Made by a program: the position numbers and the translations under genes
Assembly (NCBI GenBank): GCA_031082145.1
Contig: JAVHLP010000012.1
Coordinates: 1-57,238 of the forward strand
Direction of reading: 5' to 3'
From: a bacterium
Lineage (GTDB): Bacteria; Bacillota; Sulfobacillia; UBA995
DNA length: 57,238 nt
Notes under the pieces: model-generated
What the model was told of the DNA's origin: nothing
What the model saw: the letters and a program-made list of their open reading frames with translations, nothing else
The model's database searches: none
Shown here: positions 4,492 through 57,027 of the stretch, piece after piece
Layout of the letters: the number at the start of each line of letters is the position of its first letter
Position numbering within the stretch: the stretch's first letter is position 1

Positions 4492-5769
4492 TCATTGTAG
4501 AGTGCCACCCTTCCTTCCCGCGAACTCAGGGCATTCCAGACAATCACCAAGGCGTACCCGCCGGAATACCACGTCCATCCTCCGCCCGTTCGGCCCCTCG
4601 AACCCGTACACTCGGTCATCGCCGGATGAGTGCAGTTGTGCACTCGGCGAACCGGGATATAGCGCGATCACCCTACCCTTTGAGGGGTTGTCGGCGAGTC
4701 CGTAGATCGTCAGTTGATACAGATCGCCCACATCGGTTGATCGGCGATCAAGAAACTTGTACTTGGCGTCCACAATCGCGATAACCCGACCCTCAGAGTC
4801 AAGCACGCGAAAATCCGGGCGCATCCGGGGAGTTGGTTGGCCAGGCGGAGCCGTGTAGAAGGAAAGGCAAATCTGCTTCGCAACCCGATGCCCGTCCGGA
4901 ACCACATCCTCCAGCAATCGCCCGATGAAGCGCTCGAACAGATGACTCATATTCAGTAGGAAGCCCGGAAAATGGCAAGTGTGCCCGTCAGATCGGTCCA
5001 GGCTCGCCTCCTGGTGAAGCAGATAGCAGAGATCCAGTGCTGGGCGGTAGTGCTGGTTCAACCGGGTCAGGCTTCGATAAGCTGTGCGAAAAGCGCTCTC
5101 CGTTAGGGTTATCGGGGTGGCGCACTCCTCCAGGAACGTCTGAAGGGTCCCAAGCTCCCGGAGCAAGAAGCGGTTCCTGGTCAGGCGTCGCGCCAGCGCT
5201 AGGGCCCCCGTAACCAACTGGTTCACCAATACGTCCGTGGTTCGGCGCTCGTAACGGCAAGGCAGCGTCGCCCCCACCCGTGGGCTGGTCGCCACCCCCG
5301 CAAAGCGAATACTGCCACGAACCGTGGCAAGCTCAGCCTCTTCCTCGACATAGGACTGAAAGAGCCCCTGGCGCACCAGCCCACTAACGTGACGAACCAA
5401 GCCCGCAACAACCAAGTCTTCCGCTGCCAATCTGGATATGCCGGCCACTCCCGACCGCTCATAGAGGGTCAGATCATCAACGCCGTAGGCGTACTGCATC
5501 ATACGGAGCATGTCCGGATGGGGTAGGCGCGGATCGATGCGCAGGGCAAAGTGCTCGAACGGCACATAGCCGACATGGGACCACGTCTCGATTTCCATTC
5601 CCGCGCGTAGTTCACGGATCTCAAGCTTGCCCTGCTCTCGCAATCGCTCGATGAACCTTCGATCCCGCCATGTCAGGGGCGGTAACACACACGCGGGATC
5701 CCGCTCGTCGAAGTACTCACGGGACCATTCGGCCACAGAGATGACTGGATAGGCCGGTGCTAGCATCAC
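4492..5769 (-). CDS. mcrC: McrC-type nuclease subunit of a modification-dependent restriction system
   Basis: 425 residues. The N-terminal part is the McrC-family domain that contacts the McrB ring. The C-terminal part holds the PD-(D/E)XK nuclease: PDF with D319, then IVDAKYK with D334 and K336. LFERF (277-281) is also a family motif. McrC cuts DNA and stimulates the GTPase of McrB, which recognises modified cytosines. Its start codon overlaps the stop of the mcrB-like gene by 4 nt (ATGA), so the two are translationally coupled. GC content looks lower than in the flanking genes, consistent with transfer of the pair. Confidence 0.88.
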   Translation of the reverse strand: MMLAPAYPVISVAEWSREYFDERDPACVLPPLTWRDRRFIERLREQGKLEIRELRAGMEIETWSHVGYVPFEHFALRIDPRLPHPDMLRMMQYAYGVDDLTLYERSGVAGISRLAAEDLVVAGLVRHVSGLVRQGLFQSYVEEEAELATVRGSIRFAGVATSPRVGATLPCRYERRTTDVLVNQLVTGALALARRLTRNRFLLRELGTLQTFLEECATPITLTESAFRTAYRSLTRLNQHYRPALDLCYLLHQEASLDRSDGHTCHFPGFLLNMSHLFERFIGRLLEDVVPDGHRVAKQICLSFYTAPPGQPTPRMRPDFRVLDSEGRVIAIVDAKYKFLDRRSTDVGDLYQLTIYGLADNPSKGRVIALYPGSPSAQLHSSGDDRVYGFEGPNGRRMDVVFRRVRLGDCLECPEFAGRKGGTLQ

Positions 5770-8048
5770 GGCTGCTCGCCCACTACCTCTGCGTTGATCA
5801 GCTGGCGGACCCGCTCCAGTAGCAAGGATTCGTGTCCCGATGCCATCACCTCGGGATGAAACCGTTGCCGGACCTCGTCTACCAGCCCGGAGCCCAGAAT
5901 CTGCTGCAGCATGGCATAGTCGTCGTAGCAGTAGTCCTGTAACAGCGGTAACACCTTGTCCCTCAGCACAGCGGCCAGGGCGGTTGCCGTTCTCAGGGAC
6001 TCACCAGTTGCGTCCAGGAAGTAGGCATGGCCAATCTGGAGGTTTCGGTTCAGTACCCTCACGATCCGATCGTTCAGCGCCATGAGCAGCTGGTCCAACG
6101 GGATCCCGTTCAGGTCCGTACCGCTTAGCAAGGTGGGATCCGGCATGAGTTCTCGAAAAGCGAACCGCCGGCGCAAGGCCGTATCCAGGACGGCGATGCT
6201 CTTGTCGGCGGTATTCATGGTCGCGATGATATAGATGTTCTCCGGCACCGCGAACGAGTCCCCCGAGATGGGCAATTGCACCGAGACGGAACCGGGGTCG
6301 TCCGGCCGCCACCTCTTATCCCGCTCAAGAAGAGTGATCAACTCCCCGAAGATCCGGGGAGTGTTCCCGCGGTTCACCTCATCAATGATAAGCACAAAGG
6401 TACGGTCCGGTTCCTGCCGGGCGTCCCGGCAAAGCTGCTTGAAGAGCCCGTCCTGAATCTGGAAATGGGGCGTCCCGTCATCGGTAAGATAAGGCCGATA
6501 CCCCTCCACGAACTCTTCGTAACCGTAGGCGGGGTGGAAGGTACACATGCGGAGGTAAGGAACTGCTGGTCGCTGTTCCGTCTTGATATGTCCTGCCAGG
6601 CCCGGATTTCGCTCCACGATCAGGCGCAGCAGGTGTTGCGCCTCCCCAGGCTCGATGGGGAAGAGCGTCCCGCGATTGGACATCCTCACCGGTCGCGAAG
6701 CCCGGAGTACCGGGTGCTTGCGAATCTCCTCGTAAGGCACCGGCTCATCCAACAGAGCCACCCGCTCCAGGGTCAGGACCCGATCATGCTCGGTGTCATG
6801 CAGCTCCTGGTGCACTCGGGCCAGAGCCATGAGGGCCAGACCCGGGGTCGCCTCGTAGCCAAAGACCAGGTCGCCCACTTGGGCTGCCTGAAAGCTCTGA
6901 TGAATGCGGCCAAAAACAAAGTCAACACTGTCTTGCTTGCGGAAAGACTGCCAGGACCCCCTGCCGGGGTTGGCCACACACCACCAGGTCGCCTGTGTCT
7001 CCCGCGAAGTGCCGTCCACCCGCAGCGTCTCGCGTTCGTCCGCGGTGAGGGCGGAGACGTCTGCTTTGTCGAAGTTGTTGGTGGCGATGATTGTCTCGGC
7101 GAGGCGACGCGCGTAGTAGGTCTTTCCCGTCCCCGGCGGCCCGTACAGTACGATCTGCCCCGTCTCGGTCAGGGGTCTGCACAGCTGCTCCAGGAGCGGA
7201 TCGGCTTCCGGCGGTCCATCAGCATCTTCGGGGGGAATATCGGTACCGGTCCCAGGTTTTGGCTCACGCCACTGCCGCTTGAGCTCCGGCGCGTAGAAGT
7301 TCACCGGCTCATCGGTCCGGTCGGACTGCAACCGCTCGCGGATCAAGGAGATTCTTCGATCCAGGGGCGCCTCTTTCGCCTCGGGAGGCAGGCAGTGAGA
7401 ATAGGTCAGAGCGATCCGGTGCTTGTCACTACTGCTGATGATCCGCTCGAATTCACCGGGGAAACGCATATGCAGCAAGGCGTGCCGCATGTCGTAGGCT
7501 CGATCACTGGGGTTGACCTGCTCAAGACAGGCGTCAAGAAGGCTTGCCGTCTGCCACGGATCGTCCAGCGTTGCGCCGGGATCGGGCAGGCGCTTCAACT
7601 CCCGCGCCATAAGAAGGACCAGCCATAGCTGCAGGTACTTCTGGTGGTAGCGCTGCGAGGTGCGGGTGAAGCCTTGGGACAGTGCCTCCCGGACCGGGGA
7701 CTGCTGAAGGGGTTCGGGCACACCGCCCATTCGGCAGATACGGGTGACAAATCCCCATTTGGTCTCTGGCCGCATGAAGGTGGAGGGAAGGGAGTAGACG
7801 ACAAACGAATCGGCCAGCACCTTATGGCAGGCCTGGGGAAGGTCGGACAACTGCTCTTCGAGTTTCTCCCAGAAGGATCGGTCGCCGTAATGAGGTTCTT
7901 CCACAAAGCGATGTACTAGGATGGACACATGGTCCAGGGTCCAGATCCCCGGGTCATCCCACAGCAGGCACCCGTCCGAGCGCAGGCATCGCTGCTCGAA
8001 GAGGTTCATGACCTCATAGACTTGAGGTGATCCCGGATGCTTGGGCAT
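5766..8048 (-). CDS. mcrB: McrB-type AAA+ GTPase with an inserted EVE domain
   Basis: 760-residue motor and recognition subunit of a McrBC system. Residues 1-260 form a helical N-terminal domain I cannot assign. Walker A GPPGTGKT is at 303-310, Walker B VLIIDE at 552-557, the McrB GTPase signature MNTADKS at 611-617 and the arginine motif RRRF at 627-630. Between Walker A and the McrB motif FHPAYGYEEFVEG (504-516) lies an insert. Its residues 353-475 open with TWWCVANPG, the hallmark of EVE domains, which are PUA-like readers of modified bases. The reader therefore sits inside the ATPase fold instead of at the N-terminus. The start ATG follows GAGGGG. It is coupled to mcrC downstream. Confidence 0.88.
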   Translation of the reverse strand: MPKHPGSPQVYEVMNLFEQRCLRSDGCLLWDDPGIWTLDHVSILVHRFVEEPHYGDRSFWEKLEEQLSDLPQACHKVLADSFVVYSLPSTFMRPETKWGFVTRICRMGGVPEPLQQSPVREALSQGFTRTSQRYHQKYLQLWLVLLMARELKRLPDPGATLDDPWQTASLLDACLEQVNPSDRAYDMRHALLHMRFPGEFERIISSSDKHRIALTYSHCLPPEAKEAPLDRRISLIRERLQSDRTDEPVNFYAPELKRQWREPKPGTGTDIPPEDADGPPEADPLLEQLCRPLTETGQIVLYGPPGTGKTYYARRLAETIIATNNFDKADVSALTADERETLRVDGTSRETQATWWCVANPGRGSWQSFRKQDSVDFVFGRIHQSFQAAQVGDLVFGYEATPGLALMALARVHQELHDTEHDRVLTLERVALLDEPVPYEEIRKHPVLRASRPVRMSNRGTLFPIEPGEAQHLLRLIVERNPGLAGHIKTEQRPAVPYLRMCTFHPAYGYEEFVEGYRPYLTDDGTPHFQIQDGLFKQLCRDARQEPDRTFVLIIDEVNRGNTPRIFGELITLLERDKRWRPDDPGSVSVQLPISGDSFAVPENIYIIATMNTADKSIAVLDTALRRRFAFRELMPDPTLLSGTDLNGIPLDQLLMALNDRIVRVLNRNLQIGHAYFLDATGESLRTATALAAVLRDKVLPLLQDYCYDDYAMLQQILGSGLVDEVRQRFHPEVMASGHESLLLERVRQLINAEVVGEQP

Positions 8049-17278: not shown

Positions 17279-17289
17279 CATTCCCGGGT

Positions 17290-17316
17290 GGGGGCGGGCC
17301 CCCGTTGCCCGCCCCC
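17290..17316 (+). terminator. GC hairpin between the symporter and the ligase genes
   Basis: GGGGGCGGGC (17290-17299) pairs with GCCCGCCCCC (17307-17316) around a 7-nt loop. There is no T-run after it, so it is more likely an RNA-processing or partial terminator element that changes the ratio of symporter to ligase message. Confidence 0.45.
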
Positions 17317-17335
17317 CGGCGGTGAGGTGAAGGCG

Positions 17336-18787
17336 GTGGAGGATTGGCGGGCCCTGGCCCGGATGCCGGCGGACCAGATCCGGGACCGGCAAGACCGGAA
17401 GCTACGGGCTTTCATCCGCAACCAGGTCTATCCCTGCAGCCCTTACTACCAGCGGCTCTTCAGGGAACACGGCATCGACCCCGACTCCATCCGGACGGTG
17501 GCGGACCTCGGCCGGGTTCCTTTCACCTTCAAGGAAGACGTGGCCCCCACCGATGAGGAGCCCGAACGCCACAAGGACTTCGTCGTCCGTCCGGACGATA
17601 CCGTGGCCGAGCGGTACGGCCACCTCAGCAAGCTGTCCATGTACGCCGGCAAGCACGTGGTGGCGGAGAAGATCCACGAGTACCGGCCGGTGCACATACA
17701 CTTCACGACCGGCCGCACCGCCCGGCCCACCCCTTTCGTGTACTCGGCCCGGGACCTGGGGTACATCAGGGAGGGAGGCTACCGGCTACTGGACGTCTTC
17801 GGGGTCCAGCCCGAGGACGTGGTGGTGAACGCCTTTCCCTACGCGCCCCACCTGGCTTTCTGGCAGACCTACTTCGCCGCCGAGGCCCAGGGTGCCCTGG
17901 TCCTGCACTCGGGCGGCGGCAAGATCATGGGCACCGGCAACCTCATCGAGGCGGTGGAGAGCCTGCGGGCCACGGTGCTGGTGTTCATCCCCGGCTACGC
18001 CTATTACTTCCTGCGGGAGGCCGCCCGGCAGGGCCGTGACTTCAGCCGGGTCCGGCTGGTGATCTTCGGCGGGGAGCGGGTCCCGCCGGGCCTCAAGGAC
18101 AAGGTCCGGGAGCTACTGGGCCAGATGGGCGGCGGCCAGGTCGACGTCCTGGCGACTTACGCGTGCACCGAGAGCCGCACCGCCTGGGGCGAGTGCCCGG
18201 CCGAGAGCTCTTTTGGCTACCACACCTACCCGGACCTGGAGGTCATCGAGGTAGTGGATCCGGCCACCGGCAAGCAGGTAGGCGAGGGTGAGGAGGGCGA
18301 GGTCGTCTACACCGCCCTGGGCTGGCGGGGCACATGCGTCCTGCGCTACCGGACGGGAGACATCGCCGCCGGCGGCATGACTACCGAGCCCTGCCCCAAC
18401 TGCGGCCGCACGGTGCCCCGGATCAGCGCCAACATCCAGCGCAAGTCGGAGTTCCGGGAGTTCGCCCTCACCAAGATCAAGGGCACTCTAGTCAACCTCA
18501 ACAACTTCTTCCCGCTGCTCATGGGCCACCCGGACCTGCTGGAGTGGCAGGTCGAGCTGCGCAAGCGGAACGACGATGCCTACGACCTGGATGAGATCTA
18601 TTTGCGGGTGGTGCCTGCCCCGGGAGTGGACCCGGGGCGCCTGGAGGCCGACCTCCAGGAGAAGGTCTTGCGGGAGACGGAGGTTGCCCCCACCGGCATC
18701 ATCCTGACCACCATGGAGGATATCCTGGGCCGCCTGGGTATGGAGACTGAGCTGAAGGAGAAGCGGATCGTGGACAATCGTCCGTGA
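17336..18787 (+). CDS. PaaK-like adenylate-forming protein, first copy
   Basis: 483 residues, phenylacetate-CoA ligase family. The start GTG 17336 follows GAGGTGAAG; the tool frame upstream runs through the hairpin. Early PaaK features are present (YPCSPYYQRLFREHGI and LGRVPFTFKED). The phosphate-binding loop, normally SSGTTGKPT, reads HFTTGRTARPTPF, and the usual glycine-rich lysine is lost. YRTGD at the ATP ribose site is kept and is followed by CPNCGRTVPRI. It may activate an unusual acid, or have a non-ligase role. It overlaps the stop-start of the second copy. Confidence 0.78.
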   Translation: MEDWRALARMPADQIRDRQDRKLRAFIRNQVYPCSPYYQRLFREHGIDPDSIRTVADLGRVPFTFKEDVAPTDEEPERHKDFVVRPDDTVAERYGHLSKLSMYAGKHVVAEKIHEYRPVHIHFTTGRTARPTPFVYSARDLGYIREGGYRLLDVFGVQPEDVVVNAFPYAPHLAFWQTYFAAEAQGALVLHSGGGKIMGTGNLIEAVESLRATVLVFIPGYAYYFLREAARQGRDFSRVRLVIFGGERVPPGLKDKVRELLGQMGGGQVDVLATYACTESRTAWGECPAESSFGYHTYPDLEVIEVVDPATGKQVGEGEEGEVVYTALGWRGTCVLRYRTGDIAAGGMTTEPCPNCGRTVPRISANIQRKSEFREFALTKIKGTLVNLNNFFPLLMGHPDLLEWQVELRKRNDDAYDLDEIYLRVVPAPGVDPGRLEADLQEKVLRETEVAPTGIILTTMEDILGRLGMETELKEKRIVDNRP

Positions 18788-18813
18788 CCGGGCGACCGAG
18801 GGGAGGAACCCCA

Positions 18814-20136
18814 GTGCTCGACTACGCTCGTCTGGGCCGGATGGCCGGAACCGAGATCCAGGCCCTGCAGGACCGGACCCTGGCCCGGGCCATCACCGAT
18901 CGGGTCTACCCCTGCCACCGCTACTACCGGCGGCTGATGGAAGAAGCGGGACTTGGGCCGGCCGACCTCGCCGGCATCGCCGGCCTGGCCCGCCTACCGT
19001 TCACCGATCGCCTGGTGATCAAGCAGGAGGGCGATCCGCGGGCGTTTGTCCTTGACCTGCCGCCGGAGACACCGCCGGCCCGGCGAGGTCTCTTCGGGCT
19101 CGGCGGCCGCGAGCCCCGGGCCCCCTCGGTCGACCCCTCCCGCCCTCTCCGGGCCATGTTCGCCGGGGGCCGGACCACTCCCCTGACCCCCATCTTCTAT
19201 GCCCAGCAGGATCTCGACCACCTGGTGGAAGCGGGCCGCCGGGTGTTCCAGGTGGCCGGCGTGGACACCGGGCAGCCCCTGGTCAACGCCATTCCCTATG
19301 GTCCCGGCCTGCCCTTCTGGCAGATCGCCGCCGCCACCCTGGACCAGGGCGTCACCGCCGTGCAGACCGGCGGGCCACGGGTCATGGACGTCGAGAAGAC
19401 CCTGTCCGCCCTGGTGAACCTGAAGGCGGCCACCCTGGCCGGTTTCCCCGGCTTTCTGGCCCACCTCCTGCGGGTGGGCGCCGGGGAGGGAATAAGGCTG
19501 GAGCGGCTCCAGCGGGTGCTGGTGACCGGCGAGCCCCTCACCGAGGGATTCCGCGAACACTTGCGGCGGCTCCTGGCCGAGGTGGGTTCGGCGGCCGAGG
19601 TACTCGGCCTCTACCTCAACACCGAGGCCAAGACCGGCTGGGCCGAGTGCGCTCCCGGCACCGGCTTTCACACCAACCCGGACCTGGAGTTCCTCGAGAT
19701 CATTGACCCTGACGAGGGAGAACGGCTGGGCCCCGGCGAGACGGGTGAACTGGTGATCACCCACCTCGACGCCAGGGGCACCTTCCTGCTCCGGTACCGA
19801 ACGGGGGATGTGGTGGAAGGCGGGTTGACGGTAGAGCCGTGCCCGGCCTGCGGCCGGACTGTTCCCCGGCTGGGCAGCTTGGTCTACCCGGCCGCCGAGG
19901 CTCCCCTGGTCCCGCTCAGGAAGTGCCTGGATGAATCCCCCGCCGTCACGCTCTGGCAACTCGCGGTGAGCGGCGGCGAAGTGGCTCTGGCCGTCTCCCC
20001 CGCCGGGATCGATCCGGCCGGCCTCCCGCCCGCCATCGCGGGTCTCCGCCGGGTGGAGGCGTTGCCTGAGTCGGAACTACACCGGCGCCTGGGCACCGAT
20101 CGCGAGCCCCGGGAAGCCCGGATAGTACTTGCCTGA
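18814..20136 (+). CDS. PaaK-like adenylate-forming protein, second copy, more degenerate
   Basis: 440 residues. Start GTG 18814 is chosen for the AGGGGAGGAA site just before it, giving a 26-nt gap from the first copy. It is a clear paralogue: the same YPCHRYYRRLMEEAGL start, LPFWQIAAATLDQG centre, YRTGDV motif and CPACGRTVPRLG after it. The phosphate loop reads FAGGRTTPLTPI and is further from consensus. The C-terminal domain is shortened and lacks an obvious catalytic lysine region. The pair could form a heteromer in which one copy is catalytic. Confidence 0.75.
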   Translation: MLDYARLGRMAGTEIQALQDRTLARAITDRVYPCHRYYRRLMEEAGLGPADLAGIAGLARLPFTDRLVIKQEGDPRAFVLDLPPETPPARRGLFGLGGREPRAPSVDPSRPLRAMFAGGRTTPLTPIFYAQQDLDHLVEAGRRVFQVAGVDTGQPLVNAIPYGPGLPFWQIAAATLDQGVTAVQTGGPRVMDVEKTLSALVNLKAATLAGFPGFLAHLLRVGAGEGIRLERLQRVLVTGEPLTEGFREHLRRLLAEVGSAAEVLGLYLNTEAKTGWAECAPGTGFHTNPDLEFLEIIDPDEGERLGPGETGELVITHLDARGTFLLRYRTGDVVEGGLTVEPCPACGRTVPRLGSLVYPAAEAPLVPLRKCLDESPAVTLWQLAVSGGEVALAVSPAGIDPAGLPPAIAGLRRVEALPESELHRRLGTDREPREARIVLA

Positions 20137-30439: not shown

Positions 30440-31786
30440 CTATTCCCTGCCATCCAGGGCCAGGCGCGCCCGGGCGGCCACGGTGGCCCGGGCCAGGCTC
30501 ACGTCCCGGGGAGCGGTGAAGGCGATTGCCAGCCAGACCAGGGCGCTGACGAACCAGAAGCTGATCGCGAAGTTCAGCGTCCAGCCCAGGCCATGACGAA
30601 CGGCGAGCCACCCCCCCAGGAGGGGCCCGGCTCCCCGCCCGATGGAGTCGGTCAGGGCGAAGAGGGAAGCGATCGCCCCCCGGTTTTCGGGCAAGTTCAC
30701 GTTCATGAGCAGGGCTTTCACGTTCGGCCCGGCCATGCCGGCCACCGTCCCCGTCAGGAGGGCCAGGAAGGTGGAGGTGACAATGCCCCTGCCGGTCCCG
30801 GTGGGGTAGCCCACCACCAGGAAGGCGGGGAAAGCCCCCAGGAAGATGCTGGCCCCGATGAACAGGGGCAGGTACGCCTGTGCCGCCAGCTGGACGCGGG
30901 CGCCGGCCATCCCCCCCAGCAGGGAGCCGGCGAGCGAGCCGGCCCCGAAGATGACGGTCATCAGGGTGGCGCTGGAGATGCTGTAGCCCTTGGTCTCCAC
31001 GTAATAGGTGATTATGAAGGCGGGCAGCACGCCCCAGGGGATGCAGCCCGGTATCCCCTGCAGGAATGCCAGCAGGTTGGTGGGAACCCGGAACAGGGCC
31101 GGAAAACCCCCGGGGGGCGGCAGCGGCAGTGACACCTGATGCTCGAGCAGGGCCCGGAGTTCGGGCTCGCCCTGCCCTCGCTGCGGCTCCGGGCAGTAGC
31201 GCCAGAACAATGGGACCAGGAGGAAGTTGGGGAGGGCCAGCAGGACAAAGGGGAGCCGCCAGCCCAGGGCGGGTCCGACCACGCCGGCCACCAGCATCCC
31301 CAGGACGACGCCCAACCCCATGAGCGCGCCGAACCAGGCGTTAGCCGCGTTGCGCTGGGAGGGAGTGAAGTAGTCGCCCAGCAGGGAGAAGGATATGGGG
31401 ATCATCCCTCCCACCCCGAACCCGGTCAGTATGCGCCAGAAGAGCAGTTCCTCGTAGGTCCGGGCGAATCCCGTCAGCAGGCAGGGGATCTCGCCCAGGA
31501 TGACCGCCCAGACCAGCAGGCGCTTGCGAGAGGAACGGTCGGCCAGGTAGCCCCAGGCCAGGGCCATCAAGGCCCCCAGCACCGTGAAAGCCGAGGACAC
31601 AAGGCCCATCTGGAAACGGTCGACGGCGAACTCCCGCTCAATCAGGATCAGGTTGGGGAACAGGATGTTCTGGTCGGCGGTGAGGAAGAGGGCCATGGCG
31701 GCCAGGTACAGGAGGCCCAGCCGCCCCTGCCGGTTCAGCAAGGCGACATCGGCGATCCCCAAGCGCTGCCACGTCCGGTCCTTCAT
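30440..31786 (-). CDS. MFS transporter at the end of the dehydratase-like operon
   Basis: 448 residues, 12 transmembrane segments. The MFS loop 2-3 motif reads GYLADRSSRKRL at about 79-90, and a FGVGGMIPISFSLLGDYF motif follows in TM4-5. A long central loop lies at about 200-240. Similar to organic-acid MFS transporters. Its start overlaps the activase stop by 4 nt (ATGA), so it is part of that operon and probably carries its substrate or product. Confidence 0.85.
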   Translation of the reverse strand: MKDRTWQRLGIADVALLNRQGRLGLLYLAAMALFLTADQNILFPNLILIEREFAVDRFQMGLVSSAFTVLGALMALAWGYLADRSSRKRLLVWAVILGEIPCLLTGFARTYEELLFWRILTGFGVGGMIPISFSLLGDYFTPSQRNAANAWFGALMGLGVVLGMLVAGVVGPALGWRLPFVLLALPNFLLVPLFWRYCPEPQRGQGEPELRALLEHQVSLPLPPPGGFPALFRVPTNLLAFLQGIPGCIPWGVLPAFIITYYVETKGYSISSATLMTVIFGAGSLAGSLLGGMAGARVQLAAQAYLPLFIGASIFLGAFPAFLVVGYPTGTGRGIVTSTFLALLTGTVAGMAGPNVKALLMNVNLPENRGAIASLFALTDSIGRGAGPLLGGWLAVRHGLGWTLNFAISFWFVSALVWLAIAFTAPRDVSLARATVAARARLALDGRE

Positions 31787-32556
31787 GGGCTCTCCCCCGG
31801 CCCGCGGCCGGCGAGCAGGGCCGCTCCCAGGGCTCCGGTGAACTGGGGTTCTTTGGGGAGGAGCAAGGGCCGTCCCACCAGCCGGGCGAACTCGCCGGTT
31901 ACTCCCTGGTTCAGGGCCACCCCGCCGGTGAAGGCGACCTCCGGCTCCAGGCCCACCCGGCCGGCCAGCCCGTGCACGCGACGGGCGACGGCGCGGTGCA
32001 GCGCCGCCGCAATGTCCTCGCGGGAGACGCCCTGGGCCAGGTGGGATATGACCTCCGACTCGGCGAAGACCGTGCAGAGATTGCTGATGGTGATCTCCCG
32101 GCCGGAAGCGTTGGCCAGGGACGCCAGCCGGCCCACTTCCACGCCCAGGGCCCCGGCCATGACCTCCAGGAAGCGGCCGGTGCCGGCGGCACAGCGGTCG
32201 TTCATGGCGAAGTCGCGCACCCGGCCTTCTCCGTCCAACCCTATCACCTTGGAATCCTGCCCGCCCACGTCCACGATGGTACGGGCGGCGGGAAAGAGCA
32301 GGCGGATACCAGCGGCGTGGCAGGTGATCTCGGTAACCCGGCGGGCCGGAAAAGGCACGTCCAGCCGGCCGTAGCCGGTGACCACCACCGGCCAGCCGGT
32401 CCCGTCCGTCCGGGCCACCACCTGGCGGTAGGCTTCTCCGGCGGCCCGGCGGGGCAGGCTGCCGGTGGGCAGCAAGACCTGGGCCAGAACCCCGGCCTCG
32501 CCGCGGGCGACCGCCTTGGTGGTCAGTGACCCCACGTCTATCCCGATGCCCTGCAT
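31783..32556 (-). CDS. Activator ATPase of the 2-hydroxyacyl-CoA dehydratase family (HgdC/BadF type)
   Basis: 257 residues, ASKHA ATPase fold. The phosphate-1 loop is GIDVGSLTTKA, and GGQDSKVI is the phosphate-2 loop. C122 (NDRCAAGTG) and C161 (NLCTVFAESEV) match the two cysteines that hold the [4Fe-4S] cluster between the subunits of the activase homodimer. ATP hydrolysis drives one low-potential electron into the partner enzyme. It overlaps both neighbours: the upstream subunit by 19 nt and the MFS gene by 4 nt. Confidence 0.9.
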   Translation of the reverse strand: MQGIGIDVGSLTTKAVARGEAGVLAQVLLPTGSLPRRAAGEAYRQVVARTDGTGWPVVVTGYGRLDVPFPARRVTEITCHAAGIRLLFPAARTIVDVGGQDSKVIGLDGEGRVRDFAMNDRCAAGTGRFLEVMAGALGVEVGRLASLANASGREITISNLCTVFAESEVISHLAQGVSREDIAAALHRAVARRVHGLAGRVGLEPEVAFTGGVALNQGVTGEFARLVGRPLLLPKEPQFTGALGAALLAGRGPGESP

Positions 32557-33776
32557 GACCCGTTCCTCCGGCTATCCAGCACTTCCAGGAAGGCGTCCAC
32601 CCGGGTCCGGGCCTGCCCCTCGGAGTAGGCGCGGGCGTCGGCCATGTCAGCCTCCAGCAGGAGCGAGGGCACCGCCAGACGGTTTCCGATCTCGCGGGCC
32701 AGAGGCAGTTGGCCCAGCGAATAAGTCTTGCAGCTGCGACAAGAATGAAAGAGCACCCCGTCGGCCCGCTGGCCCTTCACCATGTGCAGCAGGCGTTCCA
32801 GCCGCCGGCCGAGGTCGATGTTGAGGATAACCTGCGAGTACTGGGTGGCCAGGGAGCCCAGTGGATCGTGGAGGTCCTCGGGCCCAAACTCGTATTCCCC
32901 CCAGGCCCAGGTGTAGGTCTCGCCGACGAAGGAAGCCCCCCGGGAGTGAAGGTAGCGGATCAGGCCGAACGCGTGCCAGATGGCGATGTTATCCCAGATC
33001 AACCGGTAACGCTCGCCCTGGACGGCCCCTTCGCCCCGGGCCACCCGCCCCTCCACTTCCCGGCACAGGCGCCGGAGGTAGTCGACACAGGCCCGGGTAC
33101 CACGGAGGGTCACCATGGGGAAGAGGTTGGTGAAGGCATCCAGGGCGCCCACGGGGCAGGGCGCAGCCCGCCGGCAGAGCTGTACTTGGTTCCACAGCGC
33201 GACCGCCTCGGCGCTCAGCCGCAGCCTGGCAGCAAGCGCTCCCCGGGTTAGCTGCCGGCCCGTCTGGGCCTGGAGAAAGGCGATCGCTTCCTCGAGCTGC
33301 CGGCGCACGTAGTCCACCTGGTGAGCGGTCAACCGCTCGCTCACAAAGGGGAAGTCCAGGATGAAGAGGGGGACGCGGTAGTGCCGGGCGACCACCTCCC
33401 ACCACTTCACCACCACGCCGCAGATGTTGCTGGCGGCGAAAAGCAGATCGGGTTCGGGCAGGGCCTTCCCTTTGAGGGGGCCCTGGCCGGTCAACATGGA
33501 TCCGATACTGGTGCGGGCGTAAGAGCAGAGATCGGGAGAGTAGCCGGCAGCCTCGGCCGCCTCGCAGAGTTCGACCGCCAGGTGACGGCTGGCCGCGACG
33601 GCCGCGAAGTTCTCCGGGTAAACGGGGAGGATCCCCAGGGCGTGCAGGAGTTCTACGGGCGCCCCGCTGGTCACCCAGGCCACCGGCCGGCGGCGGCGCC
33701 GGGCCAGAAAGGCATCCCGGTAATGGGCGACCAGCATTGCCTTGAGCCGCCCATCGGTCTTCAGACGGCCCGTCAC
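32538..33776 (-). CDS. HgdB/BcrC-family Fe-S subunit, 412 residues
   Basis: Member of the 2-hydroxyacyl-CoA dehydratase D-component family (HgdB, FldB, BcrC, BzdN and the double-cubane cluster proteins). Likely cluster ligands are C84 (DLCSYARTS), C119 (ASNICGVV) and the C346/C349 pair in FHSCRSCK. Receives an electron from the activase to perform a radical dehydration or reduction. It overlaps the second subunit by 4 nt upstream and the activase downstream. No CoA-transferase gene is present, so the substrate need not be a hydroxyacyl-CoA. Confidence 0.87.
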   Translation of the reverse strand: MTGRLKTDGRLKAMLVAHYRDAFLARRRRRPVAWVTSGAPVELLHALGILPVYPENFAAVAASRHLAVELCEAAEAAGYSPDLCSYARTSIGSMLTGQGPLKGKALPEPDLLFAASNICGVVVKWWEVVARHYRVPLFILDFPFVSERLTAHQVDYVRRQLEEAIAFLQAQTGRQLTRGALAARLRLSAEAVALWNQVQLCRRAAPCPVGALDAFTNLFPMVTLRGTRACVDYLRRLCREVEGRVARGEGAVQGERYRLIWDNIAIWHAFGLIRYLHSRGASFVGETYTWAWGEYEFGPEDLHDPLGSLATQYSQVILNIDLGRRLERLLHMVKGQRADGVLFHSCRSCKTYSLGQLPLAREIGNRLAVPSLLLEADMADARAYSEGQARTRVDAFLEVLDSRRNGSCRASG

Positions 33777-34843
33777 CGCCTGTCCCCTCCCCCCAGGGTC
33801 TCCAGGAACGCTTCCACGCGGGTGCGCGTCTGCCCCCGCGGCAGCGTCCCCTGCTCCAATTCCAGGGCCAGGCTGGGCACTTGCCGGGCCGCCAGTCCCG
33901 CCCGGAGGTACGGCAGGTCAAAGGCATGGGACTCGCAGAACTTCTGCAGTAGGAAGACCACTCCCTCGGCGCGAAGAGCGGCTACCTGCTCGAGCAGGGC
34001 GTCGAGCCGGCGCCAGGCGGGATGCTTAGCGGGACACGGGAGCCGGGCCAGGTAGGCCCGGGCCAGTTCGGCCACCGGGTTTGGCGGCGGCACGTCACCC
34101 CAGGCCCCGCCCAAGGCGACGTAGCGGGAACCCACGCACAGGTCATCCCCGACCACCGCCGCCCCCGCCAATTCCAGTTCTCGAAGCACCACCGGGGTCT
34201 CCAGGGCGCCGCCGGCAACCAGGATCCGCGTCCCGCCGGCCACCCCCGCCTCGTCCGGCAGGGCCAGCAGTTCCAGGGCGGCCAACCGGTCCATCACCTG
34301 GGCCCCCATGGCGGCCTCCAGGAACGGCCGGCCGGCCAGCCCACTCCCGGCCAGTGCCTCCCGGAGCGACCCGGCCAGGCGCACCGCCGAGTGAATGGCG
34401 TCGGCGACAACCGGGCCGCCCGCCACCCCCTCCAGCCACCGGCGGAAGCGCTCGAACTCCCGCGCTGCATACTCCTGAGCGGCCTCGCCCTCCACCCGGA
34501 GGGGGAGGTTGATGAAGAACAAGGAGCGGGCCGGCAAGTACATCCGCCATACCTCGGCCACCGCCCGCAGCGAGTCGCAGGTGTAGGGGAACACGACACC
34601 GGCCAGCCAGTCCCATTCCCCCCGCAAGGCCGCGTCCAGACAGCCCCGGGCAAAGGGGCAAGCGAAGCTCTGCAGGTAAGTATCTGCCGGGCCCGGAGGA
34701 CCGCCGGGGGGAAACAGCCGCACCGGCTGAAGGCCTGCCGCCAGGATGAGTTCCTCCGGGGTATAGGAGCAGAGGTAGCCAATGGCCCCTCCCCGGGGTA
34801 CGCCGTTGCCGGCCAGAGCCTGACGGAAGGCGTCCTGTCCCAC
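33773..34843 (-). CDS. Second HgdB/BcrC-family Fe-S subunit, 356 residues
   Basis: A shorter and divergent paralogue. It starts with the GYLCSYTPEELILAAGLQPVR motif of the family, and has C62 and C68 (SFACPFARGC), C89 (YTCDSLR) and a late LLQKFCESHAFD cysteine. The two subunits probably form a heterodimer, as in BcrB/BcrC and HgdA/HgdB. Start is GTG with a moderate site (GGCGGATAGG). It lies 13 nt after DUF362 and overlaps the 412-residue subunit by 4 nt. Confidence 0.85.
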   Translation of the reverse strand: MGQDAFRQALAGNGVPRGGAIGYLCSYTPEELILAAGLQPVRLFPPGGPPGPADTYLQSFACPFARGCLDAALRGEWDWLAGVVFPYTCDSLRAVAEVWRMYLPARSLFFINLPLRVEGEAAQEYAAREFERFRRWLEGVAGGPVVADAIHSAVRLAGSLREALAGSGLAGRPFLEAAMGAQVMDRLAALELLALPDEAGVAGGTRILVAGGALETPVVLRELELAGAAVVGDDLCVGSRYVALGGAWGDVPPPNPVAELARAYLARLPCPAKHPAWRRLDALLEQVAALRAEGVVFLLQKFCESHAFDLPYLRAGLAARQVPSLALELEQGTLPRGQTRTRVEAFLETLGGGDRR

Positions 34844-34855
34844 CCTATCCGCCCC

Positions 34856-35950
34856 CTAGCTGAAAATCTTCCCGAACTCGCCGGCGATGGCGTCCCCGGG
34901 CACTACTATGGCCCCCTCCGGACACAGCTCGGCACAACAGAAGCAGGAGATGCAGCCGTCCTCAACCACTGGGTGAGGATCGAGCCGGATGACCCGGGGA
35001 GGGCAGTTCACCGCGCACTCACCACATCCGGTGCACCGCTCCGGGTTGACCCGCGGCCGGGTCGTGCTGATGGTCATCAAGGCCGCCGCCATCTCCAGGG
35101 GGGAGGACCGGAAGGTCGAGGGGAGGCGGAAGCCGGGGATCACCTCAAGCCGCCCCACCAGGTCGATGGCCTCGACCTCGCCCAGCCCGCGCTCGGCGGC
35201 GATCGAGAGGAGTCTCAGCGTGGCGGGGTCCACTCCCATCATCCGGGCCATCACGGCGTCCACCGCCACGCCGTCATAGCCGGCCAGGATCTTGCCCAGT
35301 GGCCGGGTCGTGCCGTGGGTCGGCCCGTTCCCCTCCATGGCCAGGACCCCGTCCAGGATGTGCAGGTCAGGCGGCCGGATGCGGTAGAGGTCGGCCAGGA
35401 GTTCGGAGAAGCGGTTGCGGGACGGGGCCTTGAGATGCAGGGCCGCCTTCGCCGCCCCGGCCACGTACCCAAAGCAGTTCTTCACGCACCCGGTCAGGGT
35501 GGTCAGGAGGTGGGTCTTGAAACAGGGCATGTTGACCACCAGGTCCGCTTCCAGCACCTCGCGGGACAGCGGGAAGGAGTCGGTGAAGCGGGAGCCGGCG
35601 GGAACCTCCGCCACCTCCCGGGAGAGATTCAGGAACCGCCCCCGGGCCGCATCCAGGAGGCCGGTGGGCCGGGCGGTGTGCGCCGAGTTCACCTCCAGGC
35701 CGCCGGGATTGTCACCCACCACCACATCGGCCCCCCGCTCGAGCAGGTGGTCGACGACCGCCCCCACCACCAGTGGGTTGGTGGTGGCTCCCGCCTCCGG
35801 AGGGAAAGGGCCGATGATGTTGGGCTTGACCAACACCCGCCGGCCCTCAACGGCCAGCGGGAAGAGTGCGAAGACCTGTTCCACGGCGGCACGGGCCGCG
35901 AGACCCAGCGGGCGGCCGGGATCGACCTCGGTGATCAGCACCCGGGCCAC
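34856..35950 (-). CDS. DUF362 protein with two C-terminal 4Fe-4S clusters
   Basis: 364 residues with GTG start at 35950 after GGGGAGGTGG. The DUF362 domain (about 1-280) has GRRVLVKPNI and PCFKTHLLTTLTGCVKNCFGY. Two ferredoxin motifs follow: CTGCGECAVNCPP and CISCFCCAELCPEGA. DUF362-ferredoxins have been seen near oxidoreductases and are suspected electron carriers or assembly factors. Here it directly precedes the HgdB-like pair and could feed the activase. Its position makes it the operon's first redox gene. Confidence 0.85.
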   Translation of the reverse strand: MARVLITEVDPGRPLGLAARAAVEQVFALFPLAVEGRRVLVKPNIIGPFPPEAGATTNPLVVGAVVDHLLERGADVVVGDNPGGLEVNSAHTARPTGLLDAARGRFLNLSREVAEVPAGSRFTDSFPLSREVLEADLVVNMPCFKTHLLTTLTGCVKNCFGYVAGAAKAALHLKAPSRNRFSELLADLYRIRPPDLHILDGVLAMEGNGPTHGTTRPLGKILAGYDGVAVDAVMARMMGVDPATLRLLSIAAERGLGEVEAIDLVGRLEVIPGFRLPSTFRSSPLEMAAALMTISTTRPRVNPERCTGCGECAVNCPPRVIRLDPHPVVEDGCISCFCCAELCPEGAIVVPGDAIAGEFGKIFS

Positions 35951-54567: not shown

Positions 54568-54623
54568 CGGGCGAATGCTCGCAGGGAACCGCCTGCGCCG
54601 GACCGGCAAAGGAGTTGGTGGCA

Positions 54624-55856
54624 TTGGATTTCTTGCTTGACACCGAACAGAAACAGGTCCGCGACGAGGCGCGCCGCTTTGTGCGGGACCAGGTTCCACG
54701 GCAACTGGTGGTGGATATGGACGCCGGCCGGGTGACCTACCCCCGTGAGTTCCTCGAGTCACTGGCCCGCCATCACCTGCTGGGCGTGCGTTTCCCCATC
54801 GAACGGGGAGGAAGGGAGGGAGACTGGGTCACCGAGACAGCCGTCATCGAGGAAGTCGGGGTCCTGGGGACGGCCCTGGCCTGCCTCTACTCGCTGCCCA
54901 GCATAGTCGGTGAAGCGGTGTATGCCTTTGGCACACCCGAACAGAAGGAGCGCTACCTGGCGCCGACTCTCAGGGCCGAGTTGACCTGCGCCGAGGCCCT
55001 CACGGAGCCCAGGGGGGGTTCGGACTTCTTCGGGACCACCGCCGAGGCCCGCCGGGATGGCTCCGGCTATCTGCTGCGGGGCCAGAAGCGCTTCATCGTT
55101 GGCGCCGAGGGGGCTGACTACTTCATGGCGTATGCCCGGACCGACCCCTCCGCTCCCCCCCACCGCGGCATAAGCGCATTCCTCGTCGACCGGGGTCCCG
55201 GCGTCGAGGTGGAGCGGGTTTACGGCCTCATGGGCACCCGGGGCGGAGGTACCGGCCGGGTGGTCTTCCGGGATGTGCGGGTGCCGCGGGAGAACCTGCT
55301 GGGACCGGAGAACGGGGCTGCCGACATCTTCTACCGCATGATGATCCCCGAGCGTCTGACCAGCGCGGCCGGCGCGCTGGGGATGGCCCGGGCGGCCTTG
55401 GAGGTGGCCGCCCGCTACAGCACCCGTCGCAAGGCCTTCGGCCGGGCCATCAGGGAATTCCAGGGAGTCAGCTTCAAGGTGGCGGATAGCCTCACCCGCC
55501 TGGACGCAGCCCGGGCGCTGGTGTACGCGGCAGCCCGGGCGGCCGACGCCGGGGCCGACCCGGCACTGGTCCGCCGCCTGGTCTCGGAAGCCAAGAAGGA
55601 AGCCACCCAGTCCGCCTGGCAAGTCATCAACGACTCCATGCAGGTGCTGGGTGGTATCGGCTACACCACCGTCTACCCGGTGGAGCGCCTGCTCCGAGAT
55701 GCGCGCTTGATCATGATCTGGACCGGCACCAACGAGATCATGAACCTGATCATCCAGCACGAGTACTACCGGGAACTAGCCGCCGCTGCCGGACAGGCGC
55801 GAGACGTGGAGCAGGACGCGGTCGAGCGGGCAGAGGAGGAGAAGGTCTACGAGTGA
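54624..55856 (+). CDS. Acyl-CoA dehydrogenase
   Basis: 410 residues from TTG 54624, which lies 9 nt after AAAGGAG; TTG 54615 and GTG 54618 are too close to it. [14 protein letters not shown] is the FAD/acyl-CoA signature, then [16 protein letters not shown] and the C-terminal ACAD motif [34 protein letters not shown]. The usual catalytic base Glu is probably E in TGTNEI. Oxidises an acyl-CoA to the enoyl form using an electron-transfer partner. It precedes the aminotransferase by 4 nt, suggesting an amino- or short-chain acid pathway. Confidence 0.9.
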
Positions 55857-55860
55857 TCGG

Positions 55861-57027
55861 GTGACCCGTTTTGCCCCCCTACGCCAGCCCCTGATGGCCG
55901 GGGCCCGGGGCTGTTGGTACACGGACGTCCAGGGCCGCCAGCATCTCGATCTGCTGGCCGGCTGCTGGTGCACGATATTGGGCCACGCTCACCCCGTCTT
56001 CACCCGGCGGGTGCGGCGGCAGGCGGGCCGGTTCGTTCACGCGGGCACCGGCTACCTGTCGCCCGAAGTGCACCAGGGGGTTGAGGCCTTCCTCTCCATA
56101 CTGCCCGGCGACTACCGGGTGGCTCTCCTGAACACGGGTAGCGAGGCGATGGACCTGGCCATCCGGGTGGCCCGGGCGGCCACCGGCCGCCGGGCCGTTA
56201 TCTCGGTGGAACGGGGGTACTACGGCGCCACCGCCGAGATGCTGGCCCTCACCGGAACGGCGGGCGCCCACCCACTAGGCTACCGGCTGCCGGTCCCCGA
56301 CTGCTCCCGCTGCGAGCATTCTCTCCCCGCCTGCGGCCTGGGGTGTACGGAACCGCCGGACCCCCTCTGCGGAGTGGCGGCCGTAGTCTGCGAGCCCATC
56401 CTGGCATCGGGGGGTATGGTGGTGCCGCCTCCGGGCTACCTGCCCCGGCTCGAGACCCTGGCCAGAAGCCGGGAGGCCTTGTTGGTGGTCAACGAGGTGA
56501 CCACCGGCGGTGGACGTACCGGGCGCTGGTTTGCCCACCAGGATCAGGGGGTCTCCCCAGACCTGGTGGTGGTGGGCAAGGCCTTTGGCAACGGGTTTCC
56601 CGCCGCCGCCCTGCTGGTGCGGGACGAGGTCGAAGACCGAGCCCGCCGGGCAGGCTTGACCCACGTGCAGTCGCACGGCTTCGATCCCTTCACCGGTTTC
56701 CTGGTGGCCACCGTGATCGAACTCGTCCGTGAGGAGGGCTTGCTGGCACGGGCCGGTGAGGTCGGTCGGGAGCTGAAGGACCGGCTGGACAAGCTGGCCG
56801 AGCGCTTCCCGGTGCGCAACGTCAGGGGCGATGGCCTCCTGCTCGCCTTCGACGTCCCCGAGCCCGGGTTTTCGGCGGTCGCCCGGCGGCTCGAAGAACT
56901 GGGGGTCGTGGTGGGGGCACAGCCGGTGCACAGTACTTTCCGGCTGCTGCCGGCGTTGGTACTGGGCGAAGTGGAGATCGCCGTCTTCGCCGGGGCGCTG
57001 GAGGACAGCCTGAGCCGCCTACCCTGA
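55861..57027 (+). CDS. Class-III PLP aminotransferase with unusual active site
   Basis: 388 residues, GTG start. PLP lysine K240 is in VVVGKAFGNGFP. The Asp that normally pairs with the PLP ring nitrogen (in DEVxTGxGRTG) is Asn here: VVNEVTTGGGRTG, N211. A cysteine-rich insert at 148-170 (CSRC, CGLGC, C) could bind a metal, as in a few related aminotransferases and dialkylglycine decarboxylases. It is coupled to the acyl-CoA dehydrogenase 4 nt upstream. Substrate unknown. Confidence 0.82.
   Translation: MTRFAPLRQPLMAGARGCWYTDVQGRQHLDLLAGCWCTILGHAHPVFTRRVRRQAGRFVHAGTGYLSPEVHQGVEAFLSILPGDYRVALLNTGSEAMDLAIRVARAATGRRAVISVERGYYGATAEMLALTGTAGAHPLGYRLPVPDCSRCEHSLPACGLGCTEPPDPLCGVAAVVCEPILASGGMVVPPPGYLPRLETLARSREALLVVNEVTTGGGRTGRWFAHQDQGVSPDLVVVGKAFGNGFPAAALLVRDEVEDRARRAGLTHVQSHGFDPFTGFLVATVIELVREEGLLARAGEVGRELKDRLDKLAERFPVRNVRGDGLLLAFDVPEPGFSAVARRLEELGVVVGAQPVHSTFRLLPALVLGEVEIAVFAGALEDSLSRLP

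Follow-up and report, generated by a model that had tools for sequence, protein, structure and literature searches.

Among the ATP-driven enzymes of the 2-hydroxyacyl-CoA dehydratase/class I benzoyl-CoA reductase family, the (R)-2-hydroxyisocaproyl-CoA dehydratase HadBC with its activase HadI (PDB 3o3m, 4eht) combines a heterodimer with a single activase and uses a CoA-transferase. In the known Had- and Lcd-type pathways the enoyl-CoA formed by dehydration is reduced by an enzyme of the acyl-CoA dehydrogenase (ACAD) type, and acryloyl-CoA reductase acts after lactoyl-CoA dehydratase. The same family includes the 3-methylbenzoyl-CoA reductase MbdON (9g87), which is served by two different activase subunits, and the class I benzoyl-CoA reductase BzdNO (8s02). 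The 1.4 Å structure of BzdNO revealed an [8Fe-9S] double cubane in BzdN, bound by Cys36, Cys73, Cys100, Cys263, Cys293 and Cys327, and a catalytic [4Fe-4S]-OH2 cluster in BzdO, held by Cys95, Cys128 and Cys380 beside Glu65 and His131 (PMC11971306). Apart from BzdNO, the only protein for which an [8Fe-9S] double cubane has so far been reported is the double-cubane cluster protein (DCCP; 6eno, 7yyl), whose function is unknown (PMC11971306). The two double cubanes of the DCCP homodimer have their ligand sets in one subunit each, and its reductase is an ATP-driven activase. Here we describe a gene cluster on contig JAVHLP010000012.1 (assembly GCA_031082145.1) of a bacterium of the lineage UBA995 (Bacillota; Sulfobacillia), located in a stretch of 57,238 nucleotides that was analysed as a whole and is called the window. 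The cluster encodes two unlike subunits of this family, an activase, a ferredoxin with a DUF362 domain (domain of unknown function) and an MFS transporter, and it probably specifies a third type of enzyme within the family. No publication on operons of this type came up in the literature searches.

The ligands of the metal clusters were compared in a MAFFT alignment of 50-odd pairs of large (alpha) and small (beta) subunits. The small subunit from the window has all six cysteines that correspond to the [8Fe-9S] ligands of BzdN (Cys25, Cys62, Cys89, Cys236, Cys270 and Cys303). This set is also complete in BzdN and DCCP, whereas HadC reads P-C-C-A-C-C at these sites, with proline at the first and alanine at the fourth, a reduced set that in enzymes of the HadBC type goes with a [4Fe-5S] cluster in place of [8Fe-9S], and MbdN lacks three of the six. 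The four charged residues that surround the distal sub-cluster of BzdN, i.e., Arg53, Arg267, Arg290 and His330, are all kept in the window protein, while the same four sites are G/R/K/Y in DCCP and G/R/I/E in HadC. BzdN is also its best match in the PDB (8s02_B). From the conservation of these ligands, the protein is predicted to be an [8Fe-9S] double-cubane subunit.

The large subunit, on the other hand, was likened to HadB because the three cluster cysteines (Cys84, Cys119 and Cys349), Glu55 and Ser37 are kept but valine replaces His131 of BzdO; HadB has alanine at this position according to PMC11971306, although the structural alignment and that of the sequences may differ by one residue, and MbdO likewise has no histidine there. 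HadB is the best PDB match of this subunit (3o3m_A, 231 bits), and a catalytic [4Fe-4S] cluster bound by the three cysteines is predicted. At the site of Trp46 of BzdO, large subunits of this kind show a TSG[A/T]PVE motif, TSGAPVE in the window, so that alanine takes the place of the tryptophan; identity to BzdNO is about 31%. The motif is nearly constant among like pairs with an alignable N-terminus, the exceptions being TSGFPVE in locus L028, SSGAPVE in L030 and TSGAPIE in L110. No description of a BzdN-type small subunit combined with a HadB-type large subunit was found in the literature searched.

The position of the pair was analysed in a tree of concatenated large and small subunits, obtained with IQ-TREE under LG+C20 with posterior mean site frequencies (PMSF) from 41 pairs that do not include FldBC, LcdAB, HgdAB or BcrBC, and rooted, as an assumption, on the pairs that bear His131. 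The window pair sits in a clade of 11 rows (support 99/98), and HadBC belongs to a separate one of 10 rows (100/99), in which two or more of the six cysteines are missing from every pair; the two lost there are retained in the window clade. Sixteen further pairs with all six cysteines form a third clade (100/99), which under this rooting groups with that of HadBC as its sister (98/96). Forcing the window pair into the HadBC clade was rejected by the approximately unbiased (AU) test (difference in log-likelihood 135, p = 1.2e-9), and a single change is enough to explain the ligand state on this tree. Monophyly of all six-Cys pairs with the TSG[A/T]P motif was not rejected by the AU test (p = 0.083), but it was not shown either. 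A tree of the large subunits alone was set aside, with BzdO and MbdO standing on very long branches. Likewise, the equivalog cut-offs of NCBIfam for HadB and HadC are not reached (268 of 750 and 111 of 700 bits), nor are those for BcrB/BzdO by the large subunit (161–168 versus 449–487 bits), for BcrC/BzdN by the small subunit (106–132 versus 421–454 bits), or for the double-cubane model NF040772 by either one (106 and 80 versus 350 bits). An earlier note on this DNA had claimed that the pair differs from the known systems; this claim stands for HadBC in the tree and the AU test, and for HadBC, BcrBC, BzdNO and DCCP at the level of the NCBIfam cut-offs.

The five genes are contiguous on the minus strand at 30440-35950, in the order DUF362-ferredoxin, small subunit, large subunit, activase and MFS transporter (Table 1), with intergenic spacings of +12, -4, -19 and -4 bp. 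Since the gene order is identical in the closest relative, a member of the same family (L027/L030), at 69–80% identity, the cluster is a real, conserved operon rather than a fortuitous grouping of genes. The two PF06050 subunits and a PF01869 activase that carries the cluster cysteines place it in the HGD-D/BCR-HAD superfamily. The earlier note had described a compact redox operon of six genes at 31783-35950; all its families were confirmed by strong Pfam matches, but the genes are five, and the MFS gene falls outside those limits. A DUF885 gene on the same strand ends 44 bp upstream of the cluster and was not retained as a member, given that it adjoins the pair only in the window, L034 having a second copy 5 kb off on the opposite strand. 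Apart from the genes for the two subunits, no PF06050 gene occurs in this genome, which spans 2.34 Mb in 34 contigs and is 98% complete.

The activase scores 237.7 bits with TIGR00241, for which the cut-off is 125.4, carries both cluster cysteines (Cys122 and Cys161) and has HadI (4eht) as its best PDB match. The DUF362 protein, which has no counterpart in the HadBC system, shows two complete CxxCxxCxxxCP motifs (C306..C316 and C333..C343). Its orthologues (at least 53% identity, E < 1e-105) are present in 10/10 genomes of the class that have a pair of the window clade (G000, G001, G004-G007, G025, G031, G066 and G067) and in none of the 144 others. The gene is directly upstream of that for the small subunit in nine of these ten genomes; in G025 it lies apart from the pair, and 305 bp separate it from a FadD gene on its upstream side (contig C77). 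The DUF362-ferredoxin is thus a dedicated partner of the pair and its candidate electron donor, as proposed in the earlier note; the donation itself is inferred. In L029, which is sister to the window clade, an unrelated protein that ends in a 2[4Fe-4S] domain is encoded right after the activase, and would suit a ferredoxin-donor slot.

Gene neighbours in related loci point to fatty-acid-like CoA substrates. A FadD-type ligase adjoins the pair in 12 of the 18 sister-clade loci, and in L033 and L093 it is found upstream of the DUF362 gene; these ligases match models of long-chain fatty-acid-CoA ligases. In L029, genes similar to FadN, FadA and FadE precede the pair. The mere co-occurrence of FadD is uninformative, as FadD is found in 84 of the 154 genomes of the class. 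A distinctive ACAD is encoded beside the large subunit, small subunit and activase genes, or in their neighbourhood, in L080, L107, L109, L110 and L111, and the window has its counterpart (Table 1), other ACADs being only 31–37% identical. Within the class, this ACAD is present in 11/16 genomes with the pair versus 14/154 of all genomes (Fisher 7e-11, and about 1e-5 when counted by family); the corresponding figures for an evenly drawn sample of the phylum are 14/16 and 30/398 (7e-16, and < 1e-8 by family). In neither test are the values fully corrected for phylogeny. Among the NCBIfam models, it scores best with that for acryloyl-CoA reductase (265 of 640 bits). A MerR regulator and a further acyl-CoA ligase of the AMP-forming kind are often encoded at its loci. 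The absence of a ligase and a dehydrogenase, stated in the earlier note, holds for the five genes, but it is a misleading clue in view of the FadD genes beside the pairs of relatives and the linked ACAD in the window. No CoA-transferase under common control was found: the single family III gene of the genome (C2:15657) has a thiolase and a TetR gene as its neighbours instead of this cluster, and family I was not searched.

Taken together, these data make it probable that the cluster encodes an ATP-driven radical enzyme dependent on CoA thioesters, the third type in its family mentioned above. In this mechanism, a low-potential donor would reduce the DUF362-ferredoxin, which would pass electrons to the activase dimer; ATP hydrolysis would then drive single electrons into the BzdN-type [8Fe-9S] double cubane of the small subunit, from where they could move to the [4Fe-4S]-OH(2) cluster of the HadB-like large subunit, and this cluster would attack the acyl-CoA. 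In the relatives, the FadD-type ligase would make the thioester and the linked ACAD would handle the product. As for the reaction, dehydration of a 2-hydroxyacyl-CoA to the 2-enoyl-CoA followed by enoyl-CoA reduction is tentatively put forward as the single most likely one, because of the HadB-like site, the lack of His131, and the ACAD with acryloyl-CoA reductase as its best model. A net two-electron, ATP-driven reduction of the acyl-CoA is a possible second choice, favoured because the double cubane is retained. The logic proposed for the first of these reactions, i.e., CoA activation, dehydration and enoyl-CoA reduction by an ACAD-type enzyme, is shared with the FldBC and LcdAB systems. A broader and more speculative idea, which we regard as unlikely, is that of a widespread, so far undescribed Bacillota enzyme in which an ATP-charged [8Fe-9S] double cubane, with the DUF362-ferredoxin as its purpose-built donor, would carry out a demanding reduction of a non-aromatic, fatty-type acyl-CoA, a new chemistry that is neither a dehydration nor a Birch reduction of benzoyl-CoA.

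Several observations weigh against this proposal of a third type. The known 2-hydroxyacyl-CoA dehydratases do not have the double cubane, so its retention would be no less compatible with a multi-electron reductase. The presence of ligands is no proof of a cluster, the type of which is a prediction, and the AlphaFold models of the small subunit (predicted local distance difference test, pLDDT, 52 from 4 alignment rows) and of the DUF362-ferredoxin (pLDDT 38 from 2 rows) were too poor for a fold search. The ACAD gene of the window is 19 kb from the pair and on the opposite strand, the best match to the operonic FadD in the genome of the window reaches 45%, with no close orthologue found in its family, and in the genomes of order f2 no activase adjoins the pair, activases being encoded elsewhere in the genome.

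The alternative that survives best, although rather unlikely, is an enzyme of the class I benzoyl-CoA reductase type, i.e., one that would use ATP to reduce an unsaturated acyl-CoA, aromatic or not, and in which the double cubane would store two electrons per turnover. The BzdN-type cysteines, the four charged second-shell residues and the best match of the small subunit agree with it, as does the MFS transporter, with its weak resemblance to transporters of aromatic acids (93.7 of 418.6 bits). However, His131, which serves BzdO as its second acid/base residue, is missing from the large subunit, a test that is not absolute since MbdO lacks it too; the score of this subunit is higher for HadB than for BzdO and BcrB, and a single activase is present instead of the two-subunit BcrAD or BzdPQ. 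The MFS gene, taken in the earlier note as a sign of a dedicated small-molecule substrate, is in any case a weak clue, as it adjoins the pair only in two genomes of family f1 (80% identity in L027/L030). A heterodimeric relative of DCCP, with reductase activity towards small molecules like acetylene, azide or hydrazine, is very improbable. Like DCCP, the small subunit holds a complete six-Cys set, and the cluster of the window itself has no gene for CoA activation; nevertheless, the large subunit lacks a second set and keeps the catalytic site of HAD/BCR enzymes, the second shell is that of BzdN, the double-cubane score is far below its cut-off, and the linkage to a ligase and an ACAD has not been described for DCCP. 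Hence, of the double-cubane-type heterodimer proposed in the earlier note, the six-Cys small subunit and the two unlike subunits hold, but not the DCCP-like function. An ordinary, merely divergent 2-hydroxyacyl-CoA dehydratase of the HadBC, FldBC, LcdAB or HgdAB type would account for HadB as the closest structure, the catalytic residues in common and the single activase, but it is very improbable given the rejected grouping with HadBC, in a tree that did not cover the other three, and the two double-cubane cysteines that the HadBC clade lost and the window pair kept.

The third type of enzyme proposed here predicts an [8Fe-9S] double cubane in many Bacillota enzymes that are still uncharacterised and do not have the histidine of benzoyl-CoA reductases, and it supplies a ligase, an ACAD and the DUF362-ferredoxin as testable partners. 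It would also offer a concrete candidate function for DUF362, and existing cultures would allow a direct test of the route that has been proposed from double-cubane ancestors to dehydratases.

Table 1. Genes of the cluster and the proposed pathway partner encoded in the window
Feature	Position	Strand	Remarks
DUF362 domain and C-terminal 2[4Fe-4S] ferredoxin domain	34856-35950	-	364 aa; Pfam DUF362 2.7e-53, Fer4
Small HGD-D subunit (beta, BzdN/HadC position)	33773-34843	-	356 aa; PF06050 1.8e-60
Large HGD-D subunit (alpha, HadB/BzdO position)	32538-33776	-	412 aa; PF06050 1.4e-75
ATP-dependent activase (HgdC/HadI type)	31783-32556	-	257 aa; BcrAD_BadFG 7e-58
MFS transporter	30440-31786	-	448 aa; MFS_1 1e-44
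Acyl-CoA dehydrogenase (ACAD), proposed pathway partner	54615-55856	+	64–69% identity to operonic ACADs elsewhere (L080, L107, L109, L110, L111)

Other arrangements were observed around these genes and their relatives. In three genomes of one genus (L079, L080 and L111) the cluster is formed by FadD, the small subunit, the large subunit and the activase. In the window and in L131, the two genomes of family f1 concerned, a class III aminotransferase gene (55861-57027, plus strand in the window) directly follows the ACAD gene. The window also contains two tandem, divergent PaaK-like ligases (17288-20136, plus strand) after an SSS-type symporter, which were considered as the ligase of the cluster and discarded: within the class, the first of them, the one tested, is confined to family f1, where all four genomes have it, even G002 and G003, which do not have the pair. 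The locus is thus specific to the family and has no relation to the operon. Since the distribution of the tested ligase tracks membership of family f1 and not the pair, this gene served as a negative control.

In order f2 (L033 4847-7898, L032, L035 and L036) a signalling set stands beside the pair in the place of the activase, and includes a receiver domain, a KaiC-like ATPase (in L033), a GAF/Spo0E-like protein and a histidine kinase. In family f26, the gene after that for the activase encodes an FAD/NAD-binding oxidoreductase that belongs to no clear family (L031 9762-11522, L093 10948-12453). Another locus, L128 (7808-12154; G000:C11, about 537.8-542.2 kb), encodes a protein of 1448 residues with two BcrAD_BadFG activase domains and a DUF2229 domain, followed by two genes similar to FAD-dependent amine oxidases or phytoene desaturases; this could be a large activase-fusion reductase, for which the plasmalogen/ether-lipid PlsA/GeR offers a comparison. 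Finally, a McrB-like AAA GTPase and a McrC-like protein encoded in the window at 4492-8048 (minus strand) probably form a type IV restriction system, and in PADLOC this pair gave weak matches, to type II restriction models only.

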